Source of the DNA: Pseudoalteromonas sp. MM1
Lineage (GTDB): Bacteria; Pseudomonadota; Gammaproteobacteria; Enterobacterales; Alteromonadaceae
Reading direction: 5' to 3'
DNA: 64,000 nucleotides
Assembly (NCBI RefSeq): GCF_030296835.1
Contig: NZ_AP027922.1
Coordinates: 434,001 to 498,000, forward strand
The position numbers and the translations under genes were made by a program. Positions 3,664 through 23,766 of this stretch are shown here, piece after piece. The notes beneath the pieces are model-generated. The model saw only the letters and a list, made by a program, of their open reading frames with translations. It had not been told where the DNA came from and searched no databases. Every line of letters starts with the position of its first letter. Within the stretch, counting starts at the first letter, position 1.

Positions 3664-4419
3664 GTGGTTATTCAGTGTGCTTTTAAAGAGTGTCGCCCAT
3701 ATTTAAATGAGCTAGAAACGCGTTTTAACTTAGCCCAATGGGCGCAAAGTTGCAGCGGTTTTACTCTGCATTACGACGATAAAGGGCTGAGCCTTTTAAA
3801 AAGCGATGAACCTAAACTTGGCGCAATAAACGTTGACTTTGTTACAGGTGCTGTTGCTCATAGGCGTAAATTTGGTGGCGGCAAAGGCCAGTCAATCGCA
3901 AAAGCGGTAGGGTTAAACAAAGGTGCAACACCAATAGTATTAGACGCAACGGCAGGCCTTGGCCGAGACGGCTTTGTATTAGCGTCACTTGGCTGTAAGG
4001 TTATACTGCACGAGCGCCATCCTGTGGTAGCGGCTTTATTGTTTGATGGCTTAAAACGCGCGTATGAGGATGCAGAGATTGGCTCTTGGATGCAGCAAAA
4101 TATGAGCCTTATATTTGGCTCAAGCCACACATTGTTAGAGCAGTGCGAGAGCATGCCCGATGTCGTGTATTTAGATCCTATGTTCCCACACCGTGAAAAG
4201 TCAGCGTTAGTAAAAAAAGAAATGCGAGTATTTCAAGAGCTTGTTGGCGCAGACAACGACGCCGATGACTTGCTTGAGTTTGCCTATCCACTTGCCAGTA
4301 AGCGCGTTGTCGTTAAGCGCCCCGATTACGCACCATTTTTAAACAATCAAACGCCAAGCATGCAAATTAAAACCAAAAAGAACCGTTTTGACGTTTATGT
4401 AAAAGCGGCCATGGTTTAA
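3664..4419 (+). CDS. rsmJ: 16S rRNA (guanine-1516 N2)-methyltransferase RsmJ; CAST attachment gene
   Basis: This 251-aa protein resembles the RsmJ/YhiQ family, which methylates G1516 of 16S rRNA using S-adenosylmethionine. A SAM-binding motif I is visible as [12 protein letters not shown] (about residues 96-107), and [10 protein letters not shown] (about 169-178) is the catalytic DPMFP-type motif. The start is GTG at 3664, preceded by GGAGTG. The gene is intact: the transposon inserts 36 bp beyond the stop. Its last 15 codons contain the protospacer recognised by the transposon's own CRISPR guide. rsmJ is one of the known attachment genes of type I-F3 CASTs. Confidence 0.93.
4373..4406 (+). 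other. Target site (PAM + protospacer) of the transposon's self-guide in rsmJ
   Basis: A CC PAM at 4373-4374 is followed by a 32-nt protospacer at 4375-4406 that matches spacer 2 of the array (48714-48745) at 23 of 32 positions, by hand alignment. Mismatches are at guide positions 6, 9, 12, 15, 18, 24, 27, 30 and 32. All but the last are third codon positions of rsmJ, and 6, 12, 18, 24 and 30 are the positions known to be flipped out of the duplex in type I Cascade. The first transposon base is at 4456, leaving 49 bp between protospacer and element, the spacing expected for I-F3 CASTs. Confidence 0.93.
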
Positions 4420-4450: not shown

Positions 4451-4455
4451 AGGAT
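4451..4455. repeat. Target-site duplication AGGAT (rsmJ side)
   Basis: AGGAT directly precedes the TGT terminus of the transposon and is repeated at 48944-48948 directly after the ACA terminus. Five-bp duplications are the norm for Tn7-like transposons. Confidence 0.93.
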
Positions 4456-4606
4456 TGTCGCTGAAACCATACCTTGACATAATACAACCATACGGTGACA
4501 TAATTAAACCATACTTTGTCATAAACCCCCTTATTGAAAATGATGCTAAAAATAAATTCCATTATAATCAATTTTTTATGTATTAATTGAACCATAGTGT
4601 GACATA
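4456..4606. repeat. tnsA-side transposon end with four TnsB-type binding sites
   Basis: After the terminal TGTCGCTG there are four 17-bp direct copies of AACCATA-N3-TGACATA at 4465-4481, 4486-4502, 4507-4523 (TGTCATA variant) and 4590-4606. The first three are packed 21 bp apart and the fourth is 83 bp further on. The fourth lies 56 bp upstream of the tnsA ATG, so TnsB binding could also repress tnsABC. The copies are on the opposite strand to those at the other end, as expected for inverted ends. Confidence 0.9.
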
Positions 4607-4662
4607 GTGATCTTTTATTTGTATAGTATGTGTACTAAAGTGATAAAAATAAATATTTACTT

Positions 4663-5292
4663 ATGTATATACGTAACTTAAGAAAGCCATCCCCAAATAA
4701 AAATGTATTTAAATTTGCGAGCACTAAAGTTAGTAGTGTAGTTATGTGTGAGAGCACATTAGAGTTTGATGCATGTTTTCATCATGAATATAACGACTTG
4801 ATAGAGAGTTTTGGGAGTCAGCCTGAAGGCTTTAAATATGAGTTTATGGGTAAAAGCTTACCTTACACACCCGATGCACTAATTGCGTATACTAATAAAA
4901 CCCAAAAATACCACGAATATAAACCTTATTCTAAAATTGCTTCTCCACTATTTAGAGCTGAATTTGCTGCCAAAAGAGCTGCATCATTAAAATTGGGAAT
5001 TGATCTTGTTTTAGTCACTGATAGACAGATTAGGGTAAATCCAATATTAAACAACTTAAAGCTATTACACCGATATTCAGGCGTTTTCGGTATAAGTAGC
5101 ATTCAAAAAGAGTTACTTAATTTTATTCATAAATCTGGGGCAATTAAGCTAAATGATATAAGCCGCCAGATTGGCTTACCTATTGGCGAGGCTCGCTCTT
5201 ATTTATTCGCACTAATGGGTAAGGGATTGATCAAAGCTAACTTAGGTATTGATGATCTAACTAATAATCCAACCTTGTGGGTTACACCATGA
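4663..5292 (+). CDS. tnsA: TnsA-like transposon endonuclease
   Basis: This 209-aa protein is the endonuclease that cuts the 5' ends of Tn7-like elements so that the transposon is excised by cut-and-paste. Residues 1-100 form a PD-(D/E)XK-like nuclease core with candidate metal ligands E30/E34 (CESTLEFD), D71 (YTPDALIAY) and the E85-x-K87 pair (YHEYKPYSK). The C-terminal third (about 145-200) looks like a winged helix (KLNDISRQIGLPIGEARSY). It is shorter than Tn7 TnsA (273 aa) but typical of I-F3 versions. The stop overlaps the tnsB start as ATGA, showing translational coupling. Confidence 0.92.
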   Translation: MYIRNLRKPSPNKNVFKFASTKVSSVVMCESTLEFDACFHHEYNDLIESFGSQPEGFKYEFMGKSLPYTPDALIAYTNKTQKYHEYKPYSKIASPLFRAEFAAKRAASLKLGIDLVLVTDRQIRVNPILNNLKLLHRYSGVFGISSIQKELLNFIHKSGAIKLNDISRQIGLPIGEARSYLFALMGKGLIKANLGIDDLTNNPTLWVTP

Positions 5293-7130
5293 CAGATTTT
5301 TTTAATGAGTTTGATGAATCACTAGCGCCATTAAAACCACAAACGCCCACACAGTACGTCAAATTAGATGATGCCAACTTAACCCAGCGTGATCTGGATA
5401 CCTTTACTGACGCTTTAAAAAACCAAGCGCTACAAAGGTATAAGCTAATTAGCACTATAGATAAAAAACTTTCACGCGGCTGGACCCAACGAAATTTAGA
5501 TCCTATTTTGGATGAGCTTTTTAAAGGAGGTGACGTAGTTCGGCCAAATTGGCGGACTGTTGCTCGTTGGCGTAAAAAGTATATTGACAGCAACGGTGAT
5601 ATTGCCTCCCTTGCTGATAAAAACCACAAAATGGGAAACAGAACTAACCGTATAAAAGGGGATGATAAATTTTTTGATAAAGCATTAGAACGATTTTTAG
5701 ATGCTAAAAGACCTACTGTTGCAACAGCATACAAGTACTACAAAGACCTAATTGTTATTGAAAATGAGAATATTGTTGAAGGCAAAATTCCAATCATATC
5801 TTACACTGCTTTTAATAAAAGAATTAAAGCAATACCCCCATACGCGGTGGCTGTAGCAAGGCATGGTAAATTTAAAGCAGATCAATGGTTTGCTTACTGC
5901 GCTGCACACGTACCGCCTACAAGAATATTAGAGCGGGTAGAGATTGATCATACACCACTTGATTTAATTCTACTTGATGATGAGTTACTTATTCCCATTG
6001 GAAGACCTTATCTAACATTACTTATTGATGTATTTAGTGGCTGTGTCCTTGGTTTTCATCTTAGTTATAAATCTCCTTCCTACGTATCTGCTGCTAAGGC
6101 TATTACTCATGCTATTAAACCAAAGAAACTTGATGCTATGAGTATACAATTACAAAATAATTGGCCTTGCTTTGGTAAGTTTGAAAACTTAGTTGTAGAT
6201 AATGGTGCTGAATTTTGGTCTAAAAATCTAGAGTATGCTTGTCAGTCAGCAGGAATAAATATCCAATATAACCCTGTACGCAAACCTTGGCTAAAGCCTG
6301 TCGTAGAGCGTTTTTTTAAAGTCATAAATCAGTATTTAATACCAGAATTTCCAGGAAAAACATTCTCAAATATTTTAGAAAAAGAAGAATATAAACCTGA
6401 AAAAGATGCAATTATACGTTTTTCAACGTTTGTAGAAGAGTTCCAACGCTGGATTGTAGATGTATACCATCAAGATAGTGACTCTCGTGAAACGCATATC
6501 CCAATCAATAAGTGGCAACAAGGATATGATGTCTATCCTCCTTTAGCTATGAGTGAAGAAGAAGAAGCGCGTTTTACTATGTTAATGCGTATCTCTGACT
6601 CAAGAACGTTAGGTAGAAATGGTATAAAGTTTGAAGAGCTAATGTATGACTCGACTGCTTTAGCTGATTATCGTAAACATTATCCGCAAACTAAGGAAAC
6701 TGTAAAAAAACTGATTAAAGTCGACCCTGATGACATTTCAAAAATTTATGTTTACTTAGAAGAGCTTGAAAGCTACCTAGAGGTACCTTGTACAGATCCT
6801 ACCGGTTATACGGATGGGCTAAGCATCTATGAACATAAAATAATAAAAAAAATTAATAGAGAAACCATTAGGGAATCTAAAAATAGTCTGGGCTTAGCTA
6901 AAGCACGTATGGCGATTCATGAGCGAGTAAAGCAAGAGCAAGAAGCTTTCATTGAATCAAAAACTAAAGCAAAAATTACAGCCGTCAAAAAGCAGGCTCA
7001 AATAGCTGATGTAAGCAATACAGGAACGGGCACTATTAAGGTTTCTGAAAAAAGTGCAGCCCCTGTGCAAAAAAATATAAGTAACGATTTATTTGATGAT
7101 TGGGATGATGACTTAGAGGCATTTGAATGA
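5289..7130 (+). CDS. tnsB: TnsB-like DDE transposase
   Basis: This 613-aa protein is the Mu/Tn7-family transposase that binds the end sites and catalyses 3' strand cleavage and joining. The DDE triad is visible as D220 (RVEIDHTPLD), D304 (LVVDNGAEFW) and E340 (KPVVERFF) in an rve-type integrase core. N-terminal DNA-binding HTH segments precede it (WRTVARWRKKY at about 87-97). The C-terminal tail (DLFDDWDDDLEAFE) is acidic and probably contacts TnsC. I chose the ATG at 5289, which overlaps the tnsA stop; a GTG four codons upstream is possible. The gene overlaps tnsC by ATGA. Confidence 0.95.
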   Translation: MTDFFNEFDESLAPLKPQTPTQYVKLDDANLTQRDLDTFTDALKNQALQRYKLISTIDKKLSRGWTQRNLDPILDELFKGGDVVRPNWRTVARWRKKYIDSNGDIASLADKNHKMGNRTNRIKGDDKFFDKALERFLDAKRPTVATAYKYYKDLIVIENENIVEGKIPIISYTAFNKRIKAIPPYAVAVARHGKFKADQWFAYCAAHVPPTRILERVEIDHTPLDLILLDDELLIPIGRPYLTLLIDVFSGCVLGFHLSYKSPSYVSAAKAITHAIKPKKLDAMSIQLQNNWPCFGKFENLVVDNGAEFWSKNLEYACQSAGINIQYNPVRKPWLKPVVERFFKVINQYLIPEFPGKTFSNILEKEEYKPEKDAIIRFSTFVEEFQRWIVDVYHQDSDSRETHIPINKWQQGYDVYPPLAMSEEEEARFTMLMRISDSRTLGRNGIKFEELMYDSTALADYRKHYPQTKETVKKLIKVDPDDISKIYVYLEELESYLEVPCTDPTGYTDGLSIYEHKIIKKINRETIRESKNSLGLAKARMAIHERVKQEQEAFIESKTKAKITAVKKQAQIADVSNTGTGTIKVSEKSAAPVQKNISNDLFDDWDDDLEAFE

Positions 7131-8128
7131 ATGCCTTAACAGAAATACAGATAGAACAGTCGCACAACTTTAGCGATTGCATTGTTATGCACACGCAAAT
7201 TAAAACAATTTTTAATGACTTTGATGAGCTGAGATTAAACCGTAAATTCCAAACAGACCAACAGTGTATGCTATTAATTGGTGATACAGGAGTTGGAAAA
7301 AGCCATACCATTAATCACTACAAAAAAAGAGTTCTAGCTACACAGAGTTATAGCCGAAACACTATGCCAGTGCTAATAAGTCGTATATTTAGGGGGAAAG
7401 GCTTAGATGCTACTTTAGTCCAAATGCTGGCAGATCTGGAGCTATTTGGAAGTAGTCAAATTAAAAAGCGAGGCTACAAAACAGACCTTACTAAAAAGCT
7501 TGTAGAGAGCTTAATTAAAGCTCAAGTTGAGTTACTCATCATTAATGAGTTTCAGGAGTTAATAGAGTTTAAAAGCATACAAGAGCGGCAACAAATTGCG
7601 AATGCATTAAAGTTTGTTAGTGAAGAAGCCAAAGTGCCAATAGTACTGGTTGGTATGCCTTGGGCTGCAAAAATAGCTGAAGAACCACAATGGGCTTCTC
7701 GCTTAGTTAGAAAAAGAAAACTTGAATACTTTAGCCTAAAAAATGACAGCAAGTACTTTCGCCAATATTTGATGGGGTTAGCTAAGAAAATGCCATTTGA
7801 TACGCCTCCCAAGCTGGAAAATAGGCATACCACAATGGCGTTATTTGCTGCATGTCGAGGGCAGAATAGAGCTCTCAAACACCTACTATCAGAAGCTTTA
7901 AAATTAGCAATGAGTTGTAACGAGTATCTTGAAAATAAACATTTTATTACTGCTTATGAAAAGTTTGATTTTTTTAATGATAAGGAAAAACTAAAATCAA
8001 AAAATCCTTTTAAACAAGATGCTAAAGATATTGTTATTTATGAGGTGATTAAAAGCTCATCCTATAACCCAAATGCATTAGATCCTGAAGATATGCTAAT
8101 AGGTCCTGAATTCGCAATAGTAAAGTAA
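7127..8128 (+). CDS. tnsC: TnsC-like AAA+ ATPase, target-selection regulator
   Basis: This 333-aa AAA+ protein links target recognition by TniQ-Cascade to the TnsA-TnsB transposase. Walker A is IGDTGVGKS at 51-59, and the Walker B-like stretch is LLIINEFQEL at 136-145. An arginine-rich sensor region follows (SRLVRKRKLEYF, about 190-200). It is shorter than Tn7 TnsC (555 aa), as in other I-F3 elements, and resembles TniB. Its start overlaps the tnsB stop, making tnsABC one operon. No terminator is obvious immediately downstream, and cargo genes follow on the opposite strand. Confidence 0.94.
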   Translation: MNALTEIQIEQSHNFSDCIVMHTQIKTIFNDFDELRLNRKFQTDQQCMLLIGDTGVGKSHTINHYKKRVLATQSYSRNTMPVLISRIFRGKGLDATLVQMLADLELFGSSQIKKRGYKTDLTKKLVESLIKAQVELLIINEFQELIEFKSIQERQQIANALKFVSEEAKVPIVLVGMPWAAKIAEEPQWASRLVRKRKLEYFSLKNDSKYFRQYLMGLAKKMPFDTPPKLENRHTTMALFAACRGQNRALKHLLSEALKLAMSCNEYLENKHFITAYEKFDFFNDKEKLKSKNPFKQDAKDIVIYEVIKSSSYNPNALDPEDMLIGPEFAIVK

Positions 8129-8309: not shown

Positions 8310-8696
8310 TCAATCAAAAGTTTTGATGTCTGAAGTCAAGATTTGATCCTCGTTGGCTTTTTCAAAACGAATGGGCACGAGCTTTTGTAATAGTGGCAAC
8401 ACAAGCAAAGACTCAGAGCGATTATCAATACAAACAACGGCATTTGCACTACTCAGCGCTCTCACCAATGCGGTAACAGGGGTTATATCGTCCAAAGACT
8501 CAATAAAACAATTGTCTTTCTCAAACTCACTAATATCGTCGAAATACGCATCAGGCGAAAAACAATATAATTCAAGCGGCTTAACTACCGCGTTATTGTT
8601 GTTTGATAGTTTTTTCCCTAACACGATGAGTGGATGAGCTTTTTTATCCAATCCGAGCTTAAGCAAAAGCATATTTTTTAAATCCATGTACTTCAC
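8310..8696 (-). CDS. Hypothetical protein, cargo
   Basis: A 128-aa open frame beginning MKYMDLKNMLLLKLGL. I do not recognise the family. It has no transmembrane segment or signal peptide. The composition looks like a real soluble protein, with alternating hydrophobic stretches such as ALVRALSSANAVVCIDN. A 94-aa frame on the other strand overlaps it but is Ser/Thr-rich and reads as its shadow. It points towards tnsC, with a 180-bp gap that holds nothing recognisable. Confidence 0.45.
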   Translation of the reverse strand: MKYMDLKNMLLLKLGLDKKAHPLIVLGKKLSNNNNAVVKPLELYCFSPDAYFDDISEFEKDNCFIESLDDITPVTALVRALSSANAVVCIDNRSESLLVLPLLQKLVPIRFEKANEDQILTSDIKTFD

Positions 8697-8788
8697 TGAA
8701 TACCAAATTAAAATAGCGTCATAATTTTATCGTGCATTATTAGGTACATTAAAACAATAACTATTTTGATGAATTACCAGCGATTGCG

Positions 8789-9094
8789 CTATGCGCTATG
8801 AGTAAGTAATTTAATCCATTCATCTGCGTTTGACACAATGAATTGATATTTATTGCCATCTTTTAATACGATTTCAATTGCATCATGTGTATAAGGCAAA
8901 ATACCCGCAACTTTACCAGAGCACTTACTCACTTTTACAATTTCACGCCGTGCAAACATATAAGGTCCTAACCCAAATTGCGCATTAAACGGTGCAAAAT
9001 GAATATCGGTGTTGGTTAGCCAAAATCTGCCGTCGGCTTTGATTGCCCCTTGTTGAATAGTGGCGATTGTCGATTTGATTGTTATTGCATGCAT
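8789..9094 (-). CDS. Small hypothetical protein with GRAM/PH-like pattern
   Basis: This 101-aa protein has the pattern of a short GRAM/PH-like barrel: alternating beta strands (FWLTNTDIHFAPFN, then MFARREIVKVSKC, then AIEIVLKDGNKYQFIVS) and a closing helix (ADEWIKLLTHS). No catalytic motif is seen. The start ATG is preceded by AAGAGATAC. The neighbouring gene on the same strand is the acyltransferase, 69 bp upstream. The fold assignment is inference from the strand pattern. Confidence 0.5.
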   Translation of the reverse strand: MHAITIKSTIATIQQGAIKADGRFWLTNTDIHFAPFNAQFGLGPYMFARREIVKVSKCSGKVAGILPYTHDAIEIVLKDGNKYQFIVSNADEWIKLLTHSA

Positions 9095-9162
9095 AATAGT
9101 ATCTCTTGATGGCTCTTAATGTGTTAGTTTTGCTGCTTTAAGTCATTAACAAGTGACGACAT

Positions 9163-10332
9163 TTAAGCTGACTGTATTAGCTTTATCTTGGTTTGCCTAC
9201 CATTAAGTAGTGCGCCCAACCACGTATTTTTAACTAATAATAAATAACTTATTTGACCTATAAGTAATGTAACCACCACGCTAACTATAAACTTTACTAA
9301 AACTGGCAAATTAGTATTAATCAATGGCATCTGAATATAAATCAGCACTGGCACATGTATTAAATAAATCCAATATGATGCATTTGATATGCTGCAACTG
9401 AGCTTACTTTTGTGATTTAAAAAACGATGCCCAAGTAAAAACGTTATGGCGGTTAAAAAAATAGCACTCAGTCCTTGTGATAAAACATGTAATACATGTA
9501 GCTCTCCCGCTGCGGCAAAATACCCCGTAGTTGCGGCAGCAATCACTTCATCTAAGCTTGGCGCGGCTGGTAATAAAGAAAAATAACCAGTCAGTGATAG
9601 TGCAACACCCAAAATAAGAGGCCATAAGTACTTATGATATGAGCAAATGAGCTGCTGTTTTTTATTAAGCCCCACTCCCAACCAATAAAAACTGCCGTAA
9701 AAACCATACGACCATAACTGTGGCGTGAGTTTATCTGGAGCAGGAAATGGAATAGATTGCCCCATTAATGAAAACGTTAACACGATGGGAAGTACAACCC
9801 ACATAAATAAAGGGTGAGCGCTAAGCGCATCGAATTTATTGCCTAATAAGTTAGTTGTTTTCAACAACCAGTGAATTAAGCAAAACTGGAATAAGTTCCA
9901 CAAAAACCATAAGTGCATAGTGCTAACAACAGGCTCTTTAATAACTTTAAACACAGCAAAAATCGGCGGTATTGGATTAGCTATACCGGCTCCAAAACTC
10001 AAGGCATGGTAGTAAACGGCAAAGCTGAACGGTAAAAATACAATAAAAGGCAGTAGAATATGTTTACTGCGATGATGTAAAAAGCGCGCGTTGCTCGATT
10101 TATCTATTAAAAGTGTACTGCAAAACCCTGCAATAATAAAAAATAATGGCATCCGAAATAAGTGCAGCGTATGCGTAATATAATCAAATAGACCATGTGT
10201 GCTTGGGTCTGCCGTAAACCAAATATTGCGAAAGAACGGACTGTAGGCTAAAGCGGCATGAAATACGATGCCGAGCAATAGCGCGAGGCTGCGTAAATTA
10301 TCAATGTAGTGTAATCGACTGTCTTTATTCAT
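9163..10332 (-). CDS. Acyltransferase family 3 membrane protein
   Basis: A 389-aa polytopic inner-membrane protein with about ten hydrophobic segments. The N-terminus LHYIDNLRSLALLLGIVFHA is the family signature: an Arg and a His near the first membrane helix that are essential in O-acetyltransferases of the OafA/OpgC type. Such proteins acylate glycans or periplasmic glucans. I chose the ATG at 10332; a TTG four codons upstream is also open. It is divergent from the histidine kinase gene across a region rich in inverted repeats, which suggests control by that two-component pair. Confidence 0.82.
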   Translation of the reverse strand: MNKDSRLHYIDNLRSLALLLGIVFHAALAYSPFFRNIWFTADPSTHGLFDYITHTLHLFRMPLFFIIAGFCSTLLIDKSSNARFLHHRSKHILLPFIVFLPFSFAVYYHALSFGAGIANPIPPIFAVFKVIKEPVVSTMHLWFLWNLFQFCLIHWLLKTTNLLGNKFDALSAHPLFMWVVLPIVLTFSLMGQSIPFPAPDKLTPQLWSYGFYGSFYWLGVGLNKKQQLICSYHKYLWPLILGVALSLTGYFSLLPAAPSLDEVIAAATTGYFAAAGELHVLHVLSQGLSAIFLTAITFLLGHRFLNHKSKLSCSISNASYWIYLIHVPVLIYIQMPLINTNLPVLVKFIVSVVVTLLIGQISYLLLVKNTWLGALLNGRQTKIKLIQSA

Positions 10333-10383
10333 TAATGTGCCCAACTAACTTTTATTAATAAAGCATAAATGAATGAGGTTTCA

Positions 10384-10428
10384 TGACACTAGTCACAAAG
10401 CTCATAGCCCGAGCTATGACAGATGTCA
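10384..10428. promoter_or_regulatory. Cluster of three inverted repeats in a divergent promoter region
   Basis: Within 45 bp there are TGAC-ACTA-GTCA (10384-10395), TCATAGC-CCGA-GCTATGA (10402-10419) and TGACA-GA-TGTCA (10417-10428). The last two overlap by three bases. They sit between the acyltransferase and kinase/regulator genes, a natural operator position for the NarL-type regulator encoded at 11606. The assignment to that regulator is inference. Confidence 0.5.
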
Positions 10429-10470
10429 CTGTTTTTACAACGCGAGTTCTGCAATAATTGCTAAAAAAAT

Positions 10471-11628
10471 ATGGCCACAGTAATGGAATCAACTATACGA
10501 CATCCAACCGATTGGCATTTCTCAACATTGGCATCGTGGCTTGGGGTGACATTGGCGTGTGCCTATTATGCTAACTCAGAATTAGCGCTATATTTGCAAA
10601 TCATAGTAAGTGGTTCCATTTTAGCTATTTTGCTGTATGTGTTAAAACAGCCTAACAAATTTGTTCACGGCGTAGCACTTGGCTATTTCCTGCTTATTTT
10701 GGCAATGATACAACTGAGTTCAACATCCTTAGTTTTTATCCACCTAGTGATGTTTACCGCGGTTTTTAGTCCTCATTTTTCGCTTCCTAAGATACTGGCT
10801 TGTGTTGTGGCCGCCATGCTGGTGTATGGTTTAACGCATTATGCGCGCTGGGAAAATGGCATTCCTTGGATCACGTTTACAATTTGGTTTTTCTTTTGCT
10901 TGATGAATTGGTTTGTTAGCCGGCGTATTGTCGAAAGTTTAAATACACATTACCAATCCCGCCAAAACTACAAAGAGTTAAAAGCCACCCAACACATGAT
11001 GGGGGCGATGCATGCAGCGCAAGAGCGACAAAACATATCACGCGAGCTCCATGACTCACTCGGCCATAAGCTTACCGCGCTCAGCATTAATTTAGATTTT
11101 GCTAAAAGAGCAGCAAATGAAGCCACCGTTGAAACCCTCTCTCTTTGTCACCAACTTAGCCAAGAAGTATTGGCTGAGGTGCGCGAAATCGTTTCCACTC
11201 AACGCAATGACAAAACGATACTTAAGCAAGCTCTTGAGGCCATTTGCGAACTGACACCTAATTTACACTGTGATCTCCAACTAAGTAAAGAGACAGAGCA
11301 GCTACCTCAAGACTACGCCCTGTGTGTATTGCGGTTTACCCAAGAGATGATCAGCAACACCCTTAAACATACCCAAGCAAACCATTTTACTTTGCATGTA
11401 AATGTCACCCTCGTTGGCGAACAGCCGCTGTTAGTTGCAAAAGCGTATCACAATCAAGCAGAGACCCATTTACCAAAACAAGGGAACGGATTAGCAGGAC
11501 TAAATGAGCGAATGGCACAATTTGGCGGTGAATTTTCACAACACCTTGAGCAAGAAACACTGATCAATACCATGACATTACCATTAAATTTAGAAGAAAA
11601 AAGCCATGATAAAGTGCCTACTAGTTGA
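10471..11628 (+). CDS. Sensor histidine kinase, NarX/DesK type (HisKA_3)
   Basis: This 385-aa protein has an N-terminal membrane domain of about five or six hydrophobic segments (residues 20-150), then a HisKA_3 dimerisation helix with the phosphoacceptor His in ISRELHDSLGHKLTAL (about residue 195). A degenerate HATPase region follows, with its N box at EMISNTLKHTQANHF and a glycine motif at GNGLAGLNERM. The layout matches DesK-type membrane sensors. Its 3' end overlaps the response regulator start by 23 bp, marking a two-gene operon. The signal sensed is unknown. Confidence 0.87.
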   Translation: MATVMESTIRHPTDWHFSTLASWLGVTLACAYYANSELALYLQIIVSGSILAILLYVLKQPNKFVHGVALGYFLLILAMIQLSSTSLVFIHLVMFTAVFSPHFSLPKILACVVAAMLVYGLTHYARWENGIPWITFTIWFFFCLMNWFVSRRIVESLNTHYQSRQNYKELKATQHMMGAMHAAQERQNISRELHDSLGHKLTALSINLDFAKRAANEATVETLSLCHQLSQEVLAEVREIVSTQRNDKTILKQALEAICELTPNLHCDLQLSKETEQLPQDYALCVLRFTQEMISNTLKHTQANHFTLHVNVTLVGEQPLLVAKAYHNQAETHLPKQGNGLAGLNERMAQFGGEFSQHLEQETLINTMTLPLNLEEKSHDKVPTS

Positions 11629-12220
11629 AGATCAGACCTTAGTTCGTTTAGGCCTCGCTAATTTACTTAACCTTGATAGCGCCATTAATATCGAAGCCCA
11701 AGCTGAAGATGGCTTACAAGCGCTTGCACTATTAGCTGAGCATAGTTTTGACATTGCTTTACTCGATATGAGAATGCCGAATTTAGATGGGCTCGGCGTG
11801 CTGCAAAAAATGCGTGAAAAGGGTGATAAAACCCCCGTACTGATCATTACCACATTTGAAGATTGTGATGTCTTAGTCAAAGCCCTTAATCTAGGTGCTC
11901 GTGGGTATGTGCTTAAAAACATTGAACTTGAAGAACTCATTAGCGCTATAAAGCAGGTCGTTGCAGGAGAGCGAGTATTGCAAAGTGCAGTGACTGATTT
12001 TTTACTCAAAAAGCAACTAAGCCCTCAGCTCTGCTTAACGGACAAAGAACAAACCGTATTGCAGTGTTTGTCTTTAGGTATGCCAAACAAAGTGATTGCC
12101 AAAAAATTAGATAACTCTGAGGGGACTATTCGTAATCATGTGTCACAAATTCTTGCCAAATTAGACGTAAAAGACCGCACTCAGGCCGTTATAAAAGCCA
12201 TTAATCAAAACCTAATTTAA
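11606..12220 (+). CDS. Response regulator, NarL/LuxR family
   Basis: A 204-aa two-domain regulator. The receiver (1-120) has an acidic E8-D9 pair, phosphoacceptor D53 (IALLDMRMPNLDG) and a conserved K near 105 (YVLKNI). The C-terminal LuxR-type HTH (about 140-200) reads LTDKEQTVLQCLSLGMPNKVIAKKL, with the usual second helix EGTIRNHVSQIL. It is translationally coupled to the kinase upstream and is its likely partner. The inverted-repeat cluster at 10384-10428 is the nearest candidate binding region. Confidence 0.9.
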   Translation: MIKCLLVEDQTLVRLGLANLLNLDSAINIEAQAEDGLQALALLAEHSFDIALLDMRMPNLDGLGVLQKMREKGDKTPVLIITTFEDCDVLVKALNLGARGYVLKNIELEELISAIKQVVAGERVLQSAVTDFLLKKQLSPQLCLTDKEQTVLQCLSLGMPNKVIAKKLDNSEGTIRNHVSQILAKLDVKDRTQAVIKAINQNLI

Positions 12221-12241
12221 CACGCGAACAACACCAAATTA

Positions 12242-12406
12242 CTATTTTTGATTAGGCTTAAGTGGTGCAATCAACATAAATAAGAGTAAACAAAACCAAC
12301 TAATAAACAAACAGGCGACTATCCATGCGAGCTTTTCTTGGAGATCCACTTTTTGTGACCTAGCAATGAGTATGATTGGCATCACCCAAATCTTGATTCC
12401 AGACAT
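12242..12406 (-). CDS. Small membrane protein, PLDc_N-like (54 aa)
   Basis: A short frame found by reading the minus strand: MSGIKIWVMPIILIARSQ..., 54 codons, ending at TAG (12244-12242). It has two hydrophobic segments separated by a charged loop (RSQKVDLQEKLAW), then FISWF. This pattern is typical of the small phospholipase-D N-terminal-like (PLDc_N) membrane proteins. The ribosome-binding site is weak (GAAGA). A start at Met9 is possible. The gene is convergent with the response regulator, whose stop is 22 bp away. Function is unknown. Confidence 0.45.
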   Translation of the reverse strand: MSGIKIWVMPIILIARSQKVDLQEKLAWIVACLFISWFCLLLFMLIAPLKPNQK

Positions 12407-12526
12407 TAAAGATCTTCAATTTGCTCATGGCACCGAACCGCCCGTCGACTCTAACTCATAACTGCCCAAACCCTAATCAGTAATACATTCGCTATCCTCA
12501 TAATAACTTTTAAATAGGAGGTTACT

Positions 12527-13123
12527 ATGAAACCAGAACTAAATCACAATGCTACTGGTGTGAAACGTCCTTTCAAGCTGGAAGAGATTTGGTGTATTCG
12601 CACTCGAATCGAAATTCAAAATAACTTGATGCAATTAGCGTTACTCAATTTGGCTATAGATAGTAAATTAAGATCATGTGATTTACTGTCTTTAAAAGTT
12701 CGAGATGTCGCTACCCAAGATCAAGTTTTTGAGAGGGTGCAATGGACACAAAAGAAAACAGGGATCGAAGTTCAATTTGAGATAACGCCGAGAACACAAC
12801 AAAGTATTAGCCGTTGGGTTCAAGAAGTTAAATTGCAGCCTAAAGATTATTTTTTCCGGAGTTTACGTCGCTCTAATCAACCCATAAGCTATTCATATTA
12901 CAGGTCTATTATCAGAAGTTAGGCTGAGCAGTTAGGGCTTGATTCTGATCTATATGGAACTCACTCAATGCGAAGAACCAAAGCGACTTTGGAGTATGCT
13001 CGAACCAAAAATATAAGGGCCGTTCAGTTACTGCTTGGCCATACAAAAATTGATAAAGCCATCAGATATCTCGGAATTGAAATTGAAGATGCAATTAAGA
13101 TATCTAGAGAAACGGATTGTTAA
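12527..13123 (+). pseudogene. Tyrosine recombinase interrupted by one in-frame amber codon
   Basis: A strong ribosome-binding site (AGGAGG) precedes an ATG at 12527. The frame runs 131 codons to TAG (12920-12922), then continues in the same frame to TAA at 13121-13123. Joined together it is a roughly 198-residue short tyrosine recombinase. The catalytic set is visible: Arg in LRSCDLL, HSMRR (HxxR) and LLGHTKI after the stop, and Tyr in AIRYLGI. Everything after the stop is still well conserved, so the nonsense change is recent, a sequencing error, or read through. It resembles short integrases of about 200 aa in marine gammaproteobacterial mobile DNA. Confidence 0.75.
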
Positions 13124-13446
13124 TTTAATATAGGTAGCAACACCAAGCTGCCTTTGCCCCAAAATGCGTTAATCTAAATACTGTAAAGCTCTGTTTTGAG
13201 AGAAGGCTTTGTGAAATCAGCGTATTTCTTTAATTTCTTTAGCTTTAAGTTATAAATTATTGAAGGTAATTGCGATGTTATTATTGTTATTATGCTCTGA
13301 ATTTGCTGTTTTCGGGCAAAGTAAATCAACCTCAAAAACTACTCAAAAATCTACAAACAACATCTTAAGGCTAATAAAAAGTGTGTCGCAAATTTAGTGT
13401 TTTAGAGTTATTGTTAGTGGGTACAAAGTATTGAGGGGAAACCTAA
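13124..13446. other. Non-coding gap upstream of the c-di-GMP gene
   Basis: A 323-bp AT-rich stretch. The only frame of note is a 40-codon one at 13275-13397 (MLLLLLLCSEFAVFG...), with AAGG upstream and a signal-peptide-like N-terminus but nothing recognisable afterwards. It could be the stub of a lost periplasmic protein. Promoter elements for the 13447 gene are probably here but are not distinct. Confidence 0.4.
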
Positions 13447-15558
13447 ATGGACAATTGCAGCGTTCTTATCATAGATGATGAAGAGATTAATACCATACAG
13501 CTAGAGCATGTTTTAGATGGAATTGGAAATATTTTAACTTCTAACAATAGCTCGGTAGCTATACCTCTGATTGAAAAAATTAAACCAGACATTTTAATTC
13601 TTGACCTAGAGATGCCTACAGTCAGTGGTTTTGAAATTTTAGAAGTGATACAGCAAAAGCCAACTCTGGCACATATTAGAACTATTGTTATTACATCTCA
13701 CAGTGATCCCGCGATAGAAGAAAAAGCATTATCTTTAGGCGCGATAGACTTTATATCAAAACCCCTAAACCTCAGACTATGTAGAATTCGTATTGAAAAT
13801 CATATAAAAATAAGAACACAAGAAAAAATATTACAACTCACACAAGCAGAACTATTTGCTGAAAAAGAACAGTTGAGAATTACGATAGATTCGATTGCAG
13901 ATGCTGTTATTTCTACGGATAAAAACGCAAATATTGTGTACATGAACCCTGTAGCGCAAAGGCTTACAGGATGGTCACAAACTGCGGCGAAAGGTCGCCA
14001 TATTGAAGAGGTCATGAAGTTATGCGACGCGACAACTAAAATACCGTCTATTAATCCTTTATCTGTTGCATTAAAAGAAAATAGACCTGTTGCTATGGCT
14101 TTAAATACACAATTGATCAGTAGGCAAGGCATAGAACATCGAGTTGAAGACAGCGCAGCTCCAATTCTTGATAAAAACCTTAACCAATGCGGCGCTGTTA
14201 TGGTATTTCAAGATGTTAGCGAAGCTTTAGCTATGTCGATGCAGATGACATACCTATCTCATCATGACCAGCTAACCTCTTTACCAAATCGAATATTACT
14301 TCACGATAGACTTACGCAAGGTATCGCTAGGGCTGCTTTTAATGACACTAAGTTAAGCTTAATGTTACTTGATCTAGATAAGTTTAAGTTTATTAATGAT
14401 GCCTTAGGGCACCATATCGGTGATGAGATAATTGCCCATATTGGTCACAGCTTGGATCGATTCGCATGTAACGATATTACAGTCGCACGTGTTGGGGGAG
14501 ATGAATTTGCACTCGTTGTTCCTCACTCGGCTAATTCTTTAAGTTTAGAGCCACTGGTTAATCAGGTTCTTAATGTTATTGGTAAGCCTTTCAGGTCAGG
14601 TGGTGAGCAGCATGTTCTTTCAGCAAGTTTAGGCATAAGTGTGTACCCTGATGATGCATCAAGTGTAGAAGAAATGCTTCGCCATGCAGACTCCGCAATG
14701 TACAAAGCAAAAAACGAATCTGCTAATAGTTACTTCTATTTTAGTGATGATTTACAGGTTGAAATGAATAGGCGTCTTGAGGTTGGAAATAAACTAAGAA
14801 AGGCATTAGATGAAGATGATCTCGACGTTCATTATCAACCTAAATATGATTTAAACACTGACACACTGATTGGTGTAGAAAGCTTAGTTCGTTTAAAAGA
14901 TGGGCAAGGTGGCTTTATTTCTCCTGTTCACTTTATTGAATATGCAGAAGAAACGGGGCTTATTTTTCGTTTAGGAGTACAAGTTCTTGAAAAAAGCTGC
15001 ATTGCAGCAAAAGCGTGGCTTGATAAAGGTCTGCCGATTAAAGTTTCTGTAAATATATCTGCAAAACAATTTACAGACACTAAACTTGTAGATACTGTCG
15101 CCGAGATCCTTGAAAGAACGCAATTACCCAGCCGCTACTTAGAGCTAGAAGTGACAGAATCGGCCTTGATTGAAAACTTTGATTATACTGTCAGTCAATT
15201 AAAGCTTATCTCTAGTATGGGGGTCAGTATTGCTCTTGATGACTTTGGAACTGGGTATTCCAGTCTTTCATATTTGAGGTTGTTTCCACTAAATGTGTTA
15301 AAAATTGATCAGTCTTTTGTACGTGATATGCTCAACGATGAGCAAGCGTTCAATATTGTAACTACAATAATTGAACTGGCCCACTCTTTAAAGCTCCAAA
15401 TTGTGGCTGAAGGGATTGAAACTTTACAACAAAAAGACCGGCTGCAAGAGCTTGGCTGTCAAATAGGCCAAGGTTATTTACTGAGCAAGCCTTTGGATTT
15501 CGGCAAGGCTGATAAACTAATACAAAGTAGTAAGGTTGAAGGATTATTATGTCCTTAA
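13447..15558 (+). CDS. REC-PAS-GGDEF-EAL cyclic-di-GMP enzyme
   Basis: This 703-aa cytoplasmic protein has an N-terminal receiver (phosphoacceptor D53 in LILDLEMP), then PAS (about 145-265), GGDEF and EAL domains. The cyclase motif is intact as VGGDEFA near residue 350. The phosphodiesterase motif is ESLVR at about 478, keeping the catalytic Glu, with VNISAKQF, LEVTES, LDDFGTGYSS, LKIDQSF and VAEGIET all present. Both activities are therefore possible; such proteins usually act as phosphodiesterases. Its stop overlaps the next start, coupling it to a second c-di-GMP enzyme. Confidence 0.93.
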   Translation: MDNCSVLIIDDEEINTIQLEHVLDGIGNILTSNNSSVAIPLIEKIKPDILILDLEMPTVSGFEILEVIQQKPTLAHIRTIVITSHSDPAIEEKALSLGAIDFISKPLNLRLCRIRIENHIKIRTQEKILQLTQAELFAEKEQLRITIDSIADAVISTDKNANIVYMNPVAQRLTGWSQTAAKGRHIEEVMKLCDATTKIPSINPLSVALKENRPVAMALNTQLISRQGIEHRVEDSAAPILDKNLNQCGAVMVFQDVSEALAMSMQMTYLSHHDQLTSLPNRILLHDRLTQGIARAAFNDTKLSLMLLDLDKFKFINDALGHHIGDEIIAHIGHSLDRFACNDITVARVGGDEFALVVPHSANSLSLEPLVNQVLNVIGKPFRSGGEQHVLSASLGISVYPDDASSVEEMLRHADSAMYKAKNESANSYFYFSDDLQVEMNRRLEVGNKLRKALDEDDLDVHYQPKYDLNTDTLIGVESLVRLKDGQGGFISPVHFIEYAEETGLIFRLGVQVLEKSCIAAKAWLDKGLPIKVSVNISAKQFTDTKLVDTVAEILERTQLPSRYLELEVTESALIENFDYTVSQLKLISSMGVSIALDDFGTGYSSLSYLRLFPLNVLKIDQSFVRDMLNDEQAFNIVTTIIELAHSLKLQIVAEGIETLQQKDRLQELGCQIGQGYLLSKPLDFGKADKLIQSSKVEGLLCP

Positions 15559-16472
15559 GTTTAAATCCATTATCAAAGTGTAAAGTATTTATTGTTGATG
15601 ATGATGAGATGGTCAGGTTAAGTCTTGGTGTTTTTTTAGAAGAATATTTTGCTGTTGACACTTACCCTTCTGGTCAGGCTGTTTTAGAAGCCTGTGAAGA
15701 TTTAATTCCAGATTTGATTTTACTAGATATTAATTTACCGGATATAAGTGGTCTGGATATTTGTAGGCGACTTAAGGCTAAAGCTACATTCGAAAATATT
15801 CCAATAATTTTTATCACTTCGACTTACGATACAGAGTGTCAAAATGCATGCTGGGAAGCTGGTGCTTCTGATTTTATTGGTAAACCCATTACAGCATCCA
15901 CGTTGATACATCGTACAAAGAATCACTTAGAGAATAAGCTTCGACTAGAAAGGCTAATAGAGCTTACTTATGAAGATTCATTGACAGGCTTATTTAATCG
16001 GCACTATTTAGATCTTGAAGTTGCTAATGTTTTTAAACAAACTTCAAGAGAGAAGAAACCGTTCAGTTTGCTAATGCTTGATCTAGATTTCTTTAAATTA
16101 TACAACGACCAATACGGACACCCTCAAGGAGATGCTTGTCTAAAAATAATTGCTGATGTTATTGAGCGCTCTATACATCGACCTCAAGATATTGCAATTA
16201 GATATGGTGGAGAAGAGTTTATCATTATACTACCATTCACAGACTTCGACGGAGTTAAATTCATATGTGATCGTATTTCAACAGAGCTTGAGGCGATTAA
16301 TATCCCGCATGTTAAGTCTATATGGGGCCGCGCTACAGTCAGTATCGGTGGAGTTATCTACGAGCACCAAAATAAGATGAGCTTTGATGAACTGATTAAT
16401 TGCGCAGATAAAGCGCTTTATGCAGCTAAAAGTGATGGACGAAACTGTTTTAGGCTTAGTTTTTGTGATTGA
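15549..16472 (+). CDS. REC-GGDEF diguanylate cyclase
   Basis: A 307-aa PleD/WspR-like response regulator. The receiver has the acidic cluster VDDDEM, phosphoacceptor Asp in LILLDINLPD (about residue 61) and the conserved Lys in FIGKPI. The GGDEF domain carries YGGEEFI near residue 220 and the helical RHYLDLE-type linker before it, so it should make cyclic-di-GMP when phosphorylated. The ATG at 15549 overlaps the upstream gene's TAA, so the two opposing c-di-GMP enzymes are made together. Likely phosphodonors are the two hybrid kinases encoded just downstream. Confidence 0.93.
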   Translation: MSLSLNPLSKCKVFIVDDDEMVRLSLGVFLEEYFAVDTYPSGQAVLEACEDLIPDLILLDINLPDISGLDICRRLKAKATFENIPIIFITSTYDTECQNACWEAGASDFIGKPITASTLIHRTKNHLENKLRLERLIELTYEDSLTGLFNRHYLDLEVANVFKQTSREKKPFSLLMLDLDFFKLYNDQYGHPQGDACLKIIADVIERSIHRPQDIAIRYGGEEFIIILPFTDFDGVKFICDRISTELEAINIPHVKSIWGRATVSIGGVIYEHQNKMSFDELINCADKALYAAKSDGRNCFRLSFCD

Positions 16473-16555
16473 TTTAGGCTTTTCTTACTGCTTTTTGTAG
16501 AAACCTCAGAAACATAGCCTATACTTTGAAGACTCTTAACTTAACAAGAAATACA

Positions 16556-17824
16556 ATGGAACATTCCCAAAAGCGTCGAGATTTTCTAAAAACACTCGGT
16601 GTTGGTGCTGCGGCATCAACACTTGCGTTTAAAGTCCCTTATGTTTTTGCAAAGAACAAAGTAACCCTTCGTGTGATGGGAACGCATGTTACGTTGCAAG
16701 AAGAGCTTAGACAAAAAGCAATGCGCGAACTAGGTATAAACATTGAGTTTTCACCGATGGGTAGTGCCGCCGTTTTGCAAAAAGCAGCAGCAGACCCTAG
16801 TTCTTTTGATTTGTATGAGCAATGGTCTGACTCTATTAATATTCTCTGGCAAGCAAATGCCATTCAGCCAATCGAGGTTGATAGACTCGTTTATTGGGAT
16901 GAAATAAACCCACTTTCCAAGACTGGCAAAATTGTACCTGATGCAAAGTTAGGTGCAGGCGATTCACCCAATAAGCTTCTTTATGCACAGCCTGATGGCT
17001 CTTTGGGAGAAACACCATCTAAATTAATTAGCTTCATGCCTTATGTACACAATGTCGATTCATTTGGCTATAACACGAATGCGATTGAAAAAGGTATTCC
17101 GTACGAAACAGAATCTTGGGCATGGTTATTAGATGAAAAGAATAAAGGCAAAGTTGCATTAGTTAATGCACCAACAATAGGTATCTTTGATGCTGCTTTA
17201 GCCGCTCAAGCTAAAGGGTTAATGAAGTTTAATGATTTAGGTAATATGAGTATTGACGAGATTGACCAATTATTTACCATTTTATTTGAAAAGAAACGGC
17301 AAGGTCATTTTTCAGGCTTTTGGACGTCAGTACCGCAATCTGTTGATTTTGTGAAAATGAACCGAGTGACCATTCAGAGTATGTTCTCACCAGGTGTCAG
17401 TGCGCTAAATGGGCAAGGCATTCCAGTAACCTATGCCTCACCAAAAGAAGGATACAGAGCATGGCATGGTGTCATGTGTTTATCAAAAAATACCCACGGG
17501 CATGTTAAAGATGCTGCGTATGAGTATATGAACTGGTGGTTATCCGGCTACCCAGGTGCGTTCATAGCAAGACAAGGATATTACATCTCTAATCCTAGCC
17601 GTAGCCAACCGCTTATGTCGAAACCTGAGTGGAATTATTGGTATGAAGGACAAGAAGCATCAACTAACTTGAAGGGAACAGATGGAAAAGTATCTATTAA
17701 AGTAGGCGAAATAAGGGATGGTGGCAGTTATATTAAACGCTTTTCGAATATTGCGGTTTGGAATACTGTGATGCCAAATTATGATTACAGTTTAGATAAG
17801 TGGTATGAACTACTTAACGCATAA
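16556..17824 (+). CDS. Periplasmic substrate-binding protein with Tat signal, no transporter nearby
   Basis: A 422-aa protein starting MEHSQKRRDFLKTLGVGAAA, a twin-arginine export signal. The mature part resembles spermidine/putrescine-type (PotD-like) ABC solute-binding proteins (cluster 1/6 SBP fold: WAWLLDEKNKGKVAL, then YEYMNWWLSGYPGAF). A TTG ten codons upstream extends the frame, but the ATG at 16556 places the RR motif normally. No permease or ATPase gene is present; instead a membrane sensor kinase begins 9 bp after the stop. The protein probably presents a ligand to that kinase rather than feeding uptake. The ligand is unknown. Confidence 0.85.
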   Translation: MEHSQKRRDFLKTLGVGAAASTLAFKVPYVFAKNKVTLRVMGTHVTLQEELRQKAMRELGINIEFSPMGSAAVLQKAAADPSSFDLYEQWSDSINILWQANAIQPIEVDRLVYWDEINPLSKTGKIVPDAKLGAGDSPNKLLYAQPDGSLGETPSKLISFMPYVHNVDSFGYNTNAIEKGIPYETESWAWLLDEKNKGKVALVNAPTIGIFDAALAAQAKGLMKFNDLGNMSIDEIDQLFTILFEKKRQGHFSGFWTSVPQSVDFVKMNRVTIQSMFSPGVSALNGQGIPVTYASPKEGYRAWHGVMCLSKNTHGHVKDAAYEYMNWWLSGYPGAFIARQGYYISNPSRSQPLMSKPEWNYWYEGQEASTNLKGTDGKVSIKVGEIRDGGSYIKRFSNIAVWNTVMPNYDYSLDKWYELLNA

Positions 17825-17833
17825 GGAAGTAAA

Positions 17834-20092: not shown

Positions 20093-20093
20093 T

Positions 20094-23000
20094 ATGAATA
20101 TTCATGATAAAGGTAAGACAAGCTTTGTTGGTTCGAAGGTATTTTTAACAGTAGTTTCCTTTGTGTTTTGCATTTTTGGCTTATTCGCAGTTTATTTTTT
20201 TGAAGGGTACTTTAAAAATGATGTTTTAGGCTCAATTGAACAAGAGTTTACTGAGACTCAAGATCGCTTAAAAGAAATAGTAACTAGTTCAATTGCTGAG
20301 TCAAAATCAGATCTCCGCTTTTTATACTCGACTCCACCCATATCTGGTTTACCAAGAGCTGAATTTAATGATGGAATTGATCCATACGATGGTACTACAT
20401 ACAAACAATGGAAAGAGCGTCTAGAAACCATATTTATTGGTTTTATGGAAAATAACCTTGCAGTTGAGCAACTTCGTATTGTTGCTGTTACAGCCGAGGG
20501 TAAAGAGTTAATACGCGTGCAAAGGGTAGGTGCATCAGTAGAGGCTGTGCCTGATTACTCATTGCAGGCTAAAAGTGGTGAGCCATATTTTTTACCAAGC
20601 TCTCAACTCGAAACTAATCAAATTTACATGTCGCCACTTATTTTAAATAAAGAATTTGGTGAAATTGTTTTTCCTTACCAGCCAATGTTACGTTTTTCTA
20701 TTCCCATCTTTAGTGATAAAGGAAAGCGATATGCATTTTTAATTATGAATGTAAATGCGAATTCACTCATTAATAATCTTAAACAGACAGTTTTCGATTA
20801 CTCTGAGTTAGTCATTAGTAGTTCTGAAGGTGACTTTGCCTACCATCCTATTGAAGAATATCAATTTTCAAGAGACTTAAACCCTGACATAACGTGGGAT
20901 AAAGTTTATAGTCAGAAAGTTCAATATCAGGGGCTCTATACGGTAACTTCAAAACTTAACCCTGAACTGCAGTTTTATGTACACTCTACAAAAGTGAATA
21001 CAAGGCCTAGAAATAAGTATGGTTACATCAACTTTAATCTTTTAGTGCCTGAAAAGTACATAGAAATGTTAATTAATGAGAAGCGAGAAATTACTTATAG
21101 CTTCCTAGCAGCTATTGGTGTTTTCACTTCTATATTGCTTATAATGTTTTATAGAAATGCAACGAGAAGTCAGTTATTAGCGGAAGCTCGCAGAGAATCA
21201 TCTGCAATAGTTGATGGGTCAATCGATGCAATCGTTGGGTTAAATTTAGAGGGGGAGTTAACAAGTATAAATAATACAGCGGAGCGTTTGTTATCAATTT
21301 CTAAAGTGACAGCATTAGGGAAACCAGCAATAGACATTGAGTTTCTCTCAAAATTACCCACCCACACCTACATTAATGATATTCAAAGCTCTAAATCACA
21401 AATTAAAGATGAATTATCTGATCAATATGGCGAAACAACGCTTCATTACGCTATATCCGTTAGCCCTGTTTTTTCTGAACACAATACTTTAATTGGACTC
21501 GCCTTAATTATTAGGAATATAACAAAAGAAAAAGATGCAGAGATAAAAGTAAAACGATTAAATACAGAGCTTGAAGCGAAAGTTCGAAAGCGTACTCAAG
21601 CGCTTGCAGAGGCCAAAGATGATGCTATCAAGCATAGCGATATAAAAAGTGCTTTCATCTCGAATATTAGCCACGAGCTTCGGACTCCACTGAATGGAGT
21701 CATCGGCACTTTAAATATTTTAAAACGCGAAGAGTTGTCAGATAAATCACGAAACCTTGTAGAAATGATGGATCTAAGTGCGTCTAATTTAAACTTATTA
21801 ATAAATGACATACTTGATTTATCTAAGATTGAAGCGGGTAAGCTCGATTTAAACCTTAAAACAACTAATCTACAACTTCTAATCGAAAGACTTGTTGAAT
21901 CAAGTGCTATTCGGGCCTTTGATAAAGGGTTAAATGTATATTTAGATACCAGTAAATTAAACTGTGGAAATGTTGAAACAGACCCGCTCAGACTCACCCA
22001 AATTTTAAATAACTTAATCAGTAATGCGATAAAGTTTACTGACAAAGGCTATATAAAAGTCATTGTTAGTTCTGAGCGCATATCGGAAGGTACACATGAT
22101 TTAAAAGTGAAGGTCCAAGATACAGGAATAGGGATCGCGCCTAACACACAAGGACAATTATTTAATGCATTTCAGCAGGCAAGTACAGCAATATCAGAAA
22201 AGTTTGGGGGGACCGGGCTAGGCTTGTCTATTTGTAAACAATTATGCCAATTAATGGATGGAGACATTTTTGTCAGTTCAACTTTAAATCAGGGCAGTGT
22301 TTTTACCTTTAATATTAAAGTTCGGTGCACTGCAGAAAACATTCACGTTTCTAAAAAATGTTATGAGAATAAAATTATTTTGGTAGCGAGCAGTAATCAG
22401 AACCTCTGGAAGGTTTTGGATAAGACACTCAGCTTACAGGGCGGTATAGTCAGCACATGTTCTATGGCGGAATTGGGTGCACACAAAAGCAAAGCTTTTG
22501 ACTACGTGTTCTTAGACTATGAAGATGATAGTATTAATAACATAGGTTCAATCATTGAAGTTTTAAGCGAAAATAATCAAAGTGCTCAGTTTATAACACT
22601 TCATCAACCAGGAAACCCACTCCCTAGAAGTATTGCATCAAAAGTTTCTCAAATTACAAAGCCTGTTACCCAAACTGAGTTAGTACAAGTAGTTGGCTAC
22701 GAAGTGCCAAAAAGTGAACCATTATATCTACTTTCTGAAACCAGCGGCTTTGAATTTTCAGATGATATCACTGAGCAATTGAACGATTGTACGATATTGA
22801 TTGTCGATGATAACGAAATAAACATTGAAGTTGCTAAAGGCGCATTAGATGAGCTGCCTATAAATATTTTAACAGCAAATAATGGACAAGATGCAATTGA
22901 ACTTTTAAATCATTACAACACAAATGAGAGGCAAATAAACTGCATACTACTGGATTGCCAAATGCCAGTTTTAGATGGTTATCAAGCGTGTGAAAAAATA

Positions 23001-23567: not shown

Positions 23568-23766
23568 GCTCTGCTTAAGTCTTAGAGAGGCGGTGCTAAT
23601 TAGGGGGTCACTTTATATAAATTGCATAGAGCAATCCGCCGACACTAACTCTTTTTTGTCCAAACACGAGTTTACCCGACCGTCAGCCTCTCGCTCATAG
23701 GGGGCTGCCAGATGAAACCTAAGCTTAATAATTAAAACTCTCTGAACTGATGTGAATCACTCCAAA

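Follow-up and report, generated by a model that had tools for sequence, protein, structure and literature searches.

How might a transposon that homes by guide RNA keep finding a host gene that its guide matches at 23 of 32 positions, or is such a match an accident? The question is raised by a stretch of 64,000 nucleotides of Pseudoalteromonas sp. MM1 (contig NZ_AP027922.1, positions 434,001 to 498,000; here called the window), taken from a genome of 4.49 Mb in two contigs, where a Tn7-like element lies just beyond rsmJ, the gene for a 16S rRNA methyltransferase. In 2020 Petassi and colleagues reportedly described CRISPR-associated Tn7-like transposons of type I-F3b that home to rsmJ. The usual att sites are guaC, yciA, ffs and rsmJ according to PMC11406308, where tolerance of mismatches and of PAM changes is suggested to serve wobble variation; rsmJ as an I-F3b homing site and codon wobble tolerance are already known from the literature. 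According to PMC12774636, 94 percent of homing events fall to four att loci, sixth bases of the guide are flipped out, and mismatches at positions 25-29 and 31-32 impair transposition. Sites at rsmJ are recorded for 44 Shewanella elements (PMC12452197), and Tn6677 has been found inserted at a 25/32 off-target site, with four of the seven mismatches at sixth positions (PMC12636600).

The element in the window occupies 4456-48943 (44,488 bp), from TGTCGCTG on the left to CAGCGACA on the right, and is flanked on both sides by AGGAT as a 5-bp target-site duplication (Table 1). In the relative L032 the flanks are closely similar, AGGAT is present once and the element is absent, as expected of an empty site. 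The TGT/ACA ends, the repeated boxes and the 5-bp duplication are those of type I-F3 elements. The presence of tnsA, tnsB, tnsC and tniQ within one element agrees with that type, as does that of cas8/5, cas7 and cas6 without cas1, cas2 or cas3 among the Pfam-scanned element proteins, a scan that left out the ORFs 35332-36186 and 38588-39529 and small ORFs. The ORFs 23767-25155 and 25149-25733 were compared to PADLOC only, and the former gave weak helicase-type matches, including one to a Cas3d model at 0.00094. From its length and from the place of the Cas_Csy2 match, cas8/5 appears to be a fusion. The array consists of two spacers with an atypical final repeat, and the guide that matches rsmJ adjoins this repeat, which is the arrangement of type I-F3b. 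Pfam scans of the scanned ORFs gave no Xre-family (C.Csp231I-like) regulator, and no candidate ORF adjoins the array. The only NCBIfam match of the host gene is the RsmJ equivalog model (4.1e-98), at 327.6 bits, below its cut-off of 422.

Table 1. The rsmJ target and the inserted element, in positions of the window
Feature	Position	Strand	Basis
rsmJ (16S rRNA G1516 methyltransferase), host gene with the target	3664..4419	+	Pfam SAM_MT 7.8e-106
PAM CC, its second base at the wobble position of a Thr codon (ACC)	4373..4374	+	sequence
Protospacer, 23/32 to spacer 2; position 1 is codon position 1	4375..4406	+	alignment
Target-site duplication AGGAT, left copy	4451..4455	+	sequence; single AGGAT in L032
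Transposon left end: TGTCGCTG, then repeated AACCATA..TGACATAA boxes	4456..4620	+	sequence; inner limit approximate
tnsA	4663..5292	+	Pfam Tn7_TnsA-like_N 2.2e-6
tnsB	5277..7130	+	Pfam Mu-transpos_C 2.2e-9; rve 5.6e-5, below that model's cut-off
tnsC	7127..8128	+	Pfam TniB 6.6e-23
Cargo: signalling genes, type I restriction-modification (27776-34309), transporter, LysR regulator, others	8310..43191		profile scans
tniQ	43495..44724	+	Pfam TniQ 9.9e-13
cas8/5	44684..46816	+	Pfam Cas_Csy2 4.6e-9, residues 453-618 of 710; first part without match
cas7	46768..47883	+	Pfam Cas_Csy3 4.5e-50
cas6	47886..48497	+	Pfam Cas_Csy4 1.3e-19
CRISPR repeat 1 (typical)	48626..48653	+	sequence
Spacer 1	48654..48685	+	no match above 20/32 in the window except itself
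CRISPR repeat 2 (typical)	48686..48713	+	sequence
Spacer 2, rsmJ homing guide (predicted)	48714..48745	+	alignment, relatives
CRISPR repeat 3 (atypical, stem CTGCCGAAAAGGCAG)	48746..48773	+	sequence
Terminator-like hairpin 3' of the array	48778..48812	+	pattern only
Transposon right end: boxes, then ..CAGCGACA	48840..48943	+	sequence; inner limit approximate
Target-site duplication AGGAT, right copy	48944..48948	+	sequence

An earlier note on this DNA had aligned spacer 2 by hand with rsmJ next to a CC PAM, and realignment on the plus strand reproduced it exactly, with all nine mismatches at 6, 9, 12, 15, 18, 24, 27, 30 and 32. Their placement is far from even, as the note had also claimed: third codon positions account for eight of the nine (hypergeometric 3.6e-5), and each of the five sixth positions is mismatched (6.3e-4). 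The guide changes at 9, 12, 15, 18 and 27 are indeed synonymous for RsmJ, while those at 6 (Lys to Asn), 24 (Tyr to stop) and 30 (Lys to Asn) are not, and all three of the latter are sixth positions. The claimed insertion distance of 49 bp agrees with a protospacer ending at 4406 and an element starting at 4456. With 1500 shuffled spacers run on the window, about 2.5 sites of at least 23/32 are expected by chance per 4.49-Mb genome, and hence the match by base count alone is not unique genome-wide. When the sixth positions are left out, the match becomes 23/27, which was reached by none of about 1.9e8 shuffled positions, and the second-best site of spacer 2 within the window is 20/32. The better match elsewhere that the earlier note had named as counter-evidence is thus absent from the window.

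A search with cas7 in 108 genomes of the genus gave a match at 1e-20 in 29, of which five, counting the window, are close, at 94-100 percent identity. The identical 32-nt guide is present in all five close elements, and the TGTCGCTG end is found 49, 50, 50, 51 and 52 nt past the rsmJ protospacer; a close relative with this spacer at another locus, which the earlier note had named as evidence against its reading, was thus not found among them. A scan of named genomes yielded 40 loci, with the repeat pattern in 38 (not in L068 and L072), and related rsmJ guides were found in Shewanella, Psychromonas and Colwellia. Altogether 16 rsmJ guide/host pairs from four genera were obtained, 15 of which have, at 48-52 nt past the protospacer, an end that reads TGTCGCTG or TGTTGCTG, the remaining one having a variant end at 48, in agreement with the distance of about 49 bp that is typical of type I-F3.

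These pairs bear on the reading that the match is accidental or a decayed remnant, the site being reached in another way such as TnsD-like protein targeting or recombination. The base count taken by itself would allow it, but the spacing, the PAM and the duplication are all right, tniQ is single (409 aa) with no second one among the scanned proteins, and the 16 pairs are arranged alike, which makes this reading hardly credible. The intact element, the target duplication, the guide, the target, the 49-bp spacing and the relatives at the same site are all seen directly in the sequence. Spacer 2 is most probably (at roughly 0.93, by our estimate) the inherited guide by which a CRISPR-associated transposon of type I-F3 (I-F3b-like) homes. 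The array would be cut by Cas6, and the guide would be carried to rsmJ by Cas8/5, Cas7 and Cas6 together with TniQ, where pairing would proceed in steps of six bases with each sixth base unread. TnsABC would then insert the element about 49 bp downstream, beyond the stop codon of rsmJ.

Several further observations concern elements of this group. Some of them target other genes, for example cobO. Two of the 16 filled rsmJ sites have a PAM without C at the first position, AG in L095 and TG in L106. In one Shewanella array (seen in L069, L070, L113 and L138) two rsmJ-like guides are consecutive, and the second, with the reading E D N R F D V Y V R, has no match above 24/32 among known rsmJ targets. 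In genome G101, a two-box transposon end lies 49 nt past rsmJ (L036, 2290 onward) and is followed by chromosomal-looking genes, and the only tnsB match of this genome lies elsewhere, next to an ffs-type guide target; the end is probably the scar of a lost rsmJ element. A plasmid of Shewanella xiamenensis, pNUITM-VS2_1, carries an I-F3 element with an rsmJ homing guide (array L365), and such a plasmid-borne element is a possible vehicle between hosts. It is one of four plasmid stretches viewed; the remaining three contain I-F cas genes with no tniQ in view.

Where do mismatches fall when more pairs are considered? Host variation was surveyed by a protein search followed by fetching of short regions (60 of many places listed). 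This gave 135 rsmJ loci, 128 of which contain the C-terminal target as defined by a motif in which codon 4 must be Arg and codon 8 Tyr, 113 of these targets being distinct; the seven loci left out of the target count read KNHRFDIY or similar. In the 16 pairs, which comprise ten distinct guides, the cells with a mismatch number 5/320 for the first two codon positions, 46/80 for wobble positions that are not sixth positions, 52/80 for sixth positions and 8/32 for positions 31-32. With one pair per distinct guide the respective counts are 3/200, 27/50, 30/50 and 4/20. Sorted by phase of six, the 16 pairs give 52/80 at the sixth, 46/80 at the third, and 3, 2, 0 and 0 of 80 at the others. Sixth and other wobble positions do not differ in rate (p 0.21), and within the window pair they are inseparable (Fisher 0.22), these values not to be read as probabilities because the pairs are related by descent, which inflates the counts. 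Since the sixth positions here are also wobble positions, a target outside the genetic code is needed as a control.

The ten guides were also compared with the 113 distinct targets. At non-sixth wobble positions the guide-host mismatch rate is 0.50-0.70, close to the variation among hosts themselves (0.44-0.75), so that codon drift of the host explains such mismatches. At sixth positions 6 and 30 the guide-host rate is 0.88, against 0.55 and 0.47 among hosts, and this large excess is confined to these two positions, little difference being seen at 12, 18 and 24. The guide letter conflicts with the residue most common among hosts in 21 of 40 twofold sixth cells, versus 0 of 30 twofold non-sixth wobble cells. 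Asn occurs in some hosts at codon 2 (3/113) and codon 10 (9/113), so that strict impossibility is limited to positions 18 and 24. When the comparison is restricted to codons 6 and 8, which are Asp and Tyr in 113 of 113 targets, the contrast shrinks to 3/20 versus 0/30, and two of the three strictly impossible cells are stop codons at Tyr 8. G-U pairing as the cause of wobble tolerance was rejected, because 16 of the 46 non-sixth wobble mismatches are of G-U type and 30 are of other types.

The gene for SRP RNA, ffs, provides the non-coding target. SRP RNA matches were found at 30 of 30 genomes with I-F3 elements, nearly all of which have ffs guides; a reading of these as yciA guides was rejected, as the SRP RNA family search identifies ffs. 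In 23 full-length ffs pairs (with six short-guide rows left out and the L082/L161 row absent, its guide being outside the search pattern), mismatches number 96/115 at the sixth phase and 30, 11, 21, 14 and 7 of 115 at the others, the third phase being 21/115. A count with five short guides mixed in gave 117/140 versus 120/756; the guides of L059 and L062, whose repeats are outside the pattern, were read by eye. A sixth-position peak without a wobble peak at a non-coding target indicates that the sixth peak fits the effector and the third-position peak fits the code. The transposon end lies 78-84 nt from protospacer position 1 in 22 of these 23 pairs (46-52 after position 32).

The terminal ffs guide is about 18-19 nt in many Vibrio-like relatives (for example arrays L117, L118, L285 and L315; ffs targets L334-L361). 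Of 77 ffs-guide loci, a count in which some genomes appear twice, 44 have a last spacer that falls short of the usual length by about 14 nt, as do 42 of 66 distinct neighbourhoods; the stem-to-stem spacing at short ffs guides is 46-47, against the usual 60-62. In 34 short-guide pairs (L146 included, L362 skipped, G668 without an ffs match), positions 6, 12 and 18 are mismatched in 101 of 102 cells and the remaining first 18 positions in 27 of 510. TGT ends were located by script in five of the 34, at 69-73 nt from protospacer position 1.

The near-complete mismatch at sixth positions in the short-guide pairs could mean that mismatches there are favoured and not merely tolerated, for example by easing strand opening or by avoiding use of the guide by host immune Cascades. 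In the same direction, 25 distinct ffs guides (short ones included) never have G at 12 or 18, where 21 distinct hosts have G in 21 and 19 cases, respectively. Yet one old change followed by shared descent could give the same pattern, and the full-length ffs pairs match at position 30 in 10 of 23 and at position 6 in 6 of 23. Moreover, PMC12774636 and PMC12636600 report the sixth bases as dispensable, in which case neutral drift suffices. Selection for mismatch is accordingly considered unlikely, and drift at unread bases is the preferred account.

The codon register is not peculiar to rsmJ. Guide targets were sought beside tnsB in 18 genomes, giving 20 guide-locus rows, of which five are rsmJ, one is ffs, two (L275 and L277, 20/32) were dropped for want of a credible target, one (L273; 23/32, with a clear transposon end at 47) was dropped since its coding frame is unclear and it has no Pfam match, and 11 belong to six other genes. 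In 11 of these 11 rows the protospacer starts at codon position 1 in the sense direction, with matches of 20/32 to 27/32; the second guide of L282 (20/32) was retained because it points to the same site as the first (24/32). Together with rsmJ, seven of seven coding genes share the register (chance 1/3 each, about 5e-4; yciA and guaC are outside this count), or five of five (0.004) when only Pfam-identified genes are counted. Pfam identifies four of the six genes, namely CobO/BtuR, a LuxR-type response regulator, ComEC and an AraC-type regulator. The remaining two, a frame of 236 codons and one of 64 codons that is truncated at the edge of its locus, gave no Pfam match. Transposon ends lie 37-53 nt after the protospacer in the rows viewed, that of L281 not being clearly a transposon end.

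Among the targets of this survey, comEC is matched by I-F3 guides in Modicisalibacter (L278 and L281), and in L278 a clear transposon end is situated 49 nt on, inside comEC, so that homing would disrupt a competence gene. The array L137 (G555; target L282) holds two guides to one gene (DQPNC..), and between these two guides eight positions differ, five third positions among them. Readable Vibrio-like arrays contain ffs guides or, in L284 and L289, AraC-type guides, and several loci are without a readable array. The AraC-type guide of genome G371 (guide in L284, target L274) looks short by eye, with about 22 nt to the next hairpin, and the transposon end in L274 is 37 nt past protospacer position 32.

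We put forward as a tentative proposal, to which we give a little under an even chance, that coding-gene homing targets of type I-F3 have been selected in one codon register, where the five unread bases and the relaxed PAM base may all lie on wobble positions. One guide could then serve whole families of hosts, while its unread letters drift freely or stay mismatched. For rsmJ itself, the main reading given above holds that the guide works in different hosts owing to the codon register of the protospacer: wobble positions take up the sixth bases, the second base of the PAM and most of the other mismatches, with codon positions 1 and 2 remaining paired. Wobble mismatches would come mostly from drift of the host gene; at sixth positions the guide would drift too, in some cases to letters impossible for the gene. 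The earlier note had put it that the guide reads a conserved protein sequence and tolerates drift. Mismatches at wobble and flipped-out positions bear out the tolerance, but reading of a protein is a metaphor for DNA read in codon register. Neither the codon register nor homing guides of 18 nt were found described in the literature searched; either may stand in Petassi et al. (2020) or Klompe et al. (2022).

Is the guide a newcomer? The earlier note had suggested an origin in the rsmJ of another species and a search for hosts with fewer mismatches, and such hosts were found: against 23/32 in its own host, the guide matches L216 (mismatches at 6, 12, 18, 24 and 32) and L103 (6, 21, 24, 30 and 32) at 27/32. 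This would suit a recent capture from a different species, to whose gene the guide would still be a near-perfect match, the poor fit here reflecting an element that has just arrived. The guide of Psychromonas RZ5 does look like such a case, with 29/32 in its own host, 30/32 in L206 and L207 and third letters that all fit codons. For the window guide, on the other hand, none of the 113 distinct targets has all its letters, and the same guide is present in five Pseudoalteromonas genomes. Its codon 8 is TAA, where Tyr is found in 135 of 135 loci (128 through the Tyr-requiring motif and seven by best match), which argues that the guide has changed since capture. The guides of Shewanella, Colwellia and Psychromonas also share a base sequence, and inheritance with the element is thus the simplest explanation. 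The window guide differs at 12, 24 and 32, presumably by later changes, from the related AAAAACAATCGTTTCGATGTTTATGTTAATGC, which occurs in exactly that form in G588. Recent capture is thus improbable, and the suggested foreign origin stands as far as better-matching hosts exist and falls short of an exact source; the window guide is best seen as an old inherited one. It is mismatched at 27 and 32, within the ranges said to impair transposition in PMC12774636, and may be weak in its present host; position 27 is mismatched in 13 of the 16 natural rsmJ pairs.

Canonical Tn7, which by means of TnsD homes to a conserved coding sequence in glmS, inserts past its end and spares the gene, resembles the window element in these respects. 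Its reader is a protein (TnsD), whereas a guide RNA would take this part in the window element. From I-F3b rsmJ elements, as described in PMC11406308 and PMC12452197, the window element does not differ in kind, since it has the same genes, the same att gene, a last spacer that serves as guide next to an atypical repeat, and an insertion in the non-coding 3' flank of rsmJ. It is a Pseudoalteromonas member with a strongly drifted guide (nine mismatches) and a long cargo that includes type I restriction-modification. The I-F3 ffs elements share the inherited homing guide and the sixth-position mismatches, but have a non-coding target, mostly a TC PAM and no wobble peak, and in many Vibrio-like members a terminal guide of about 18 nt. 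One landing site could persist across genera without any update of the guide, as the unread and the variable bases of the protospacer coincide. The split between host drift at wobble positions and guide drift at unread bases is directly testable in laboratory CAST systems, and it suggests where guides meant for use across related strains might be placed.
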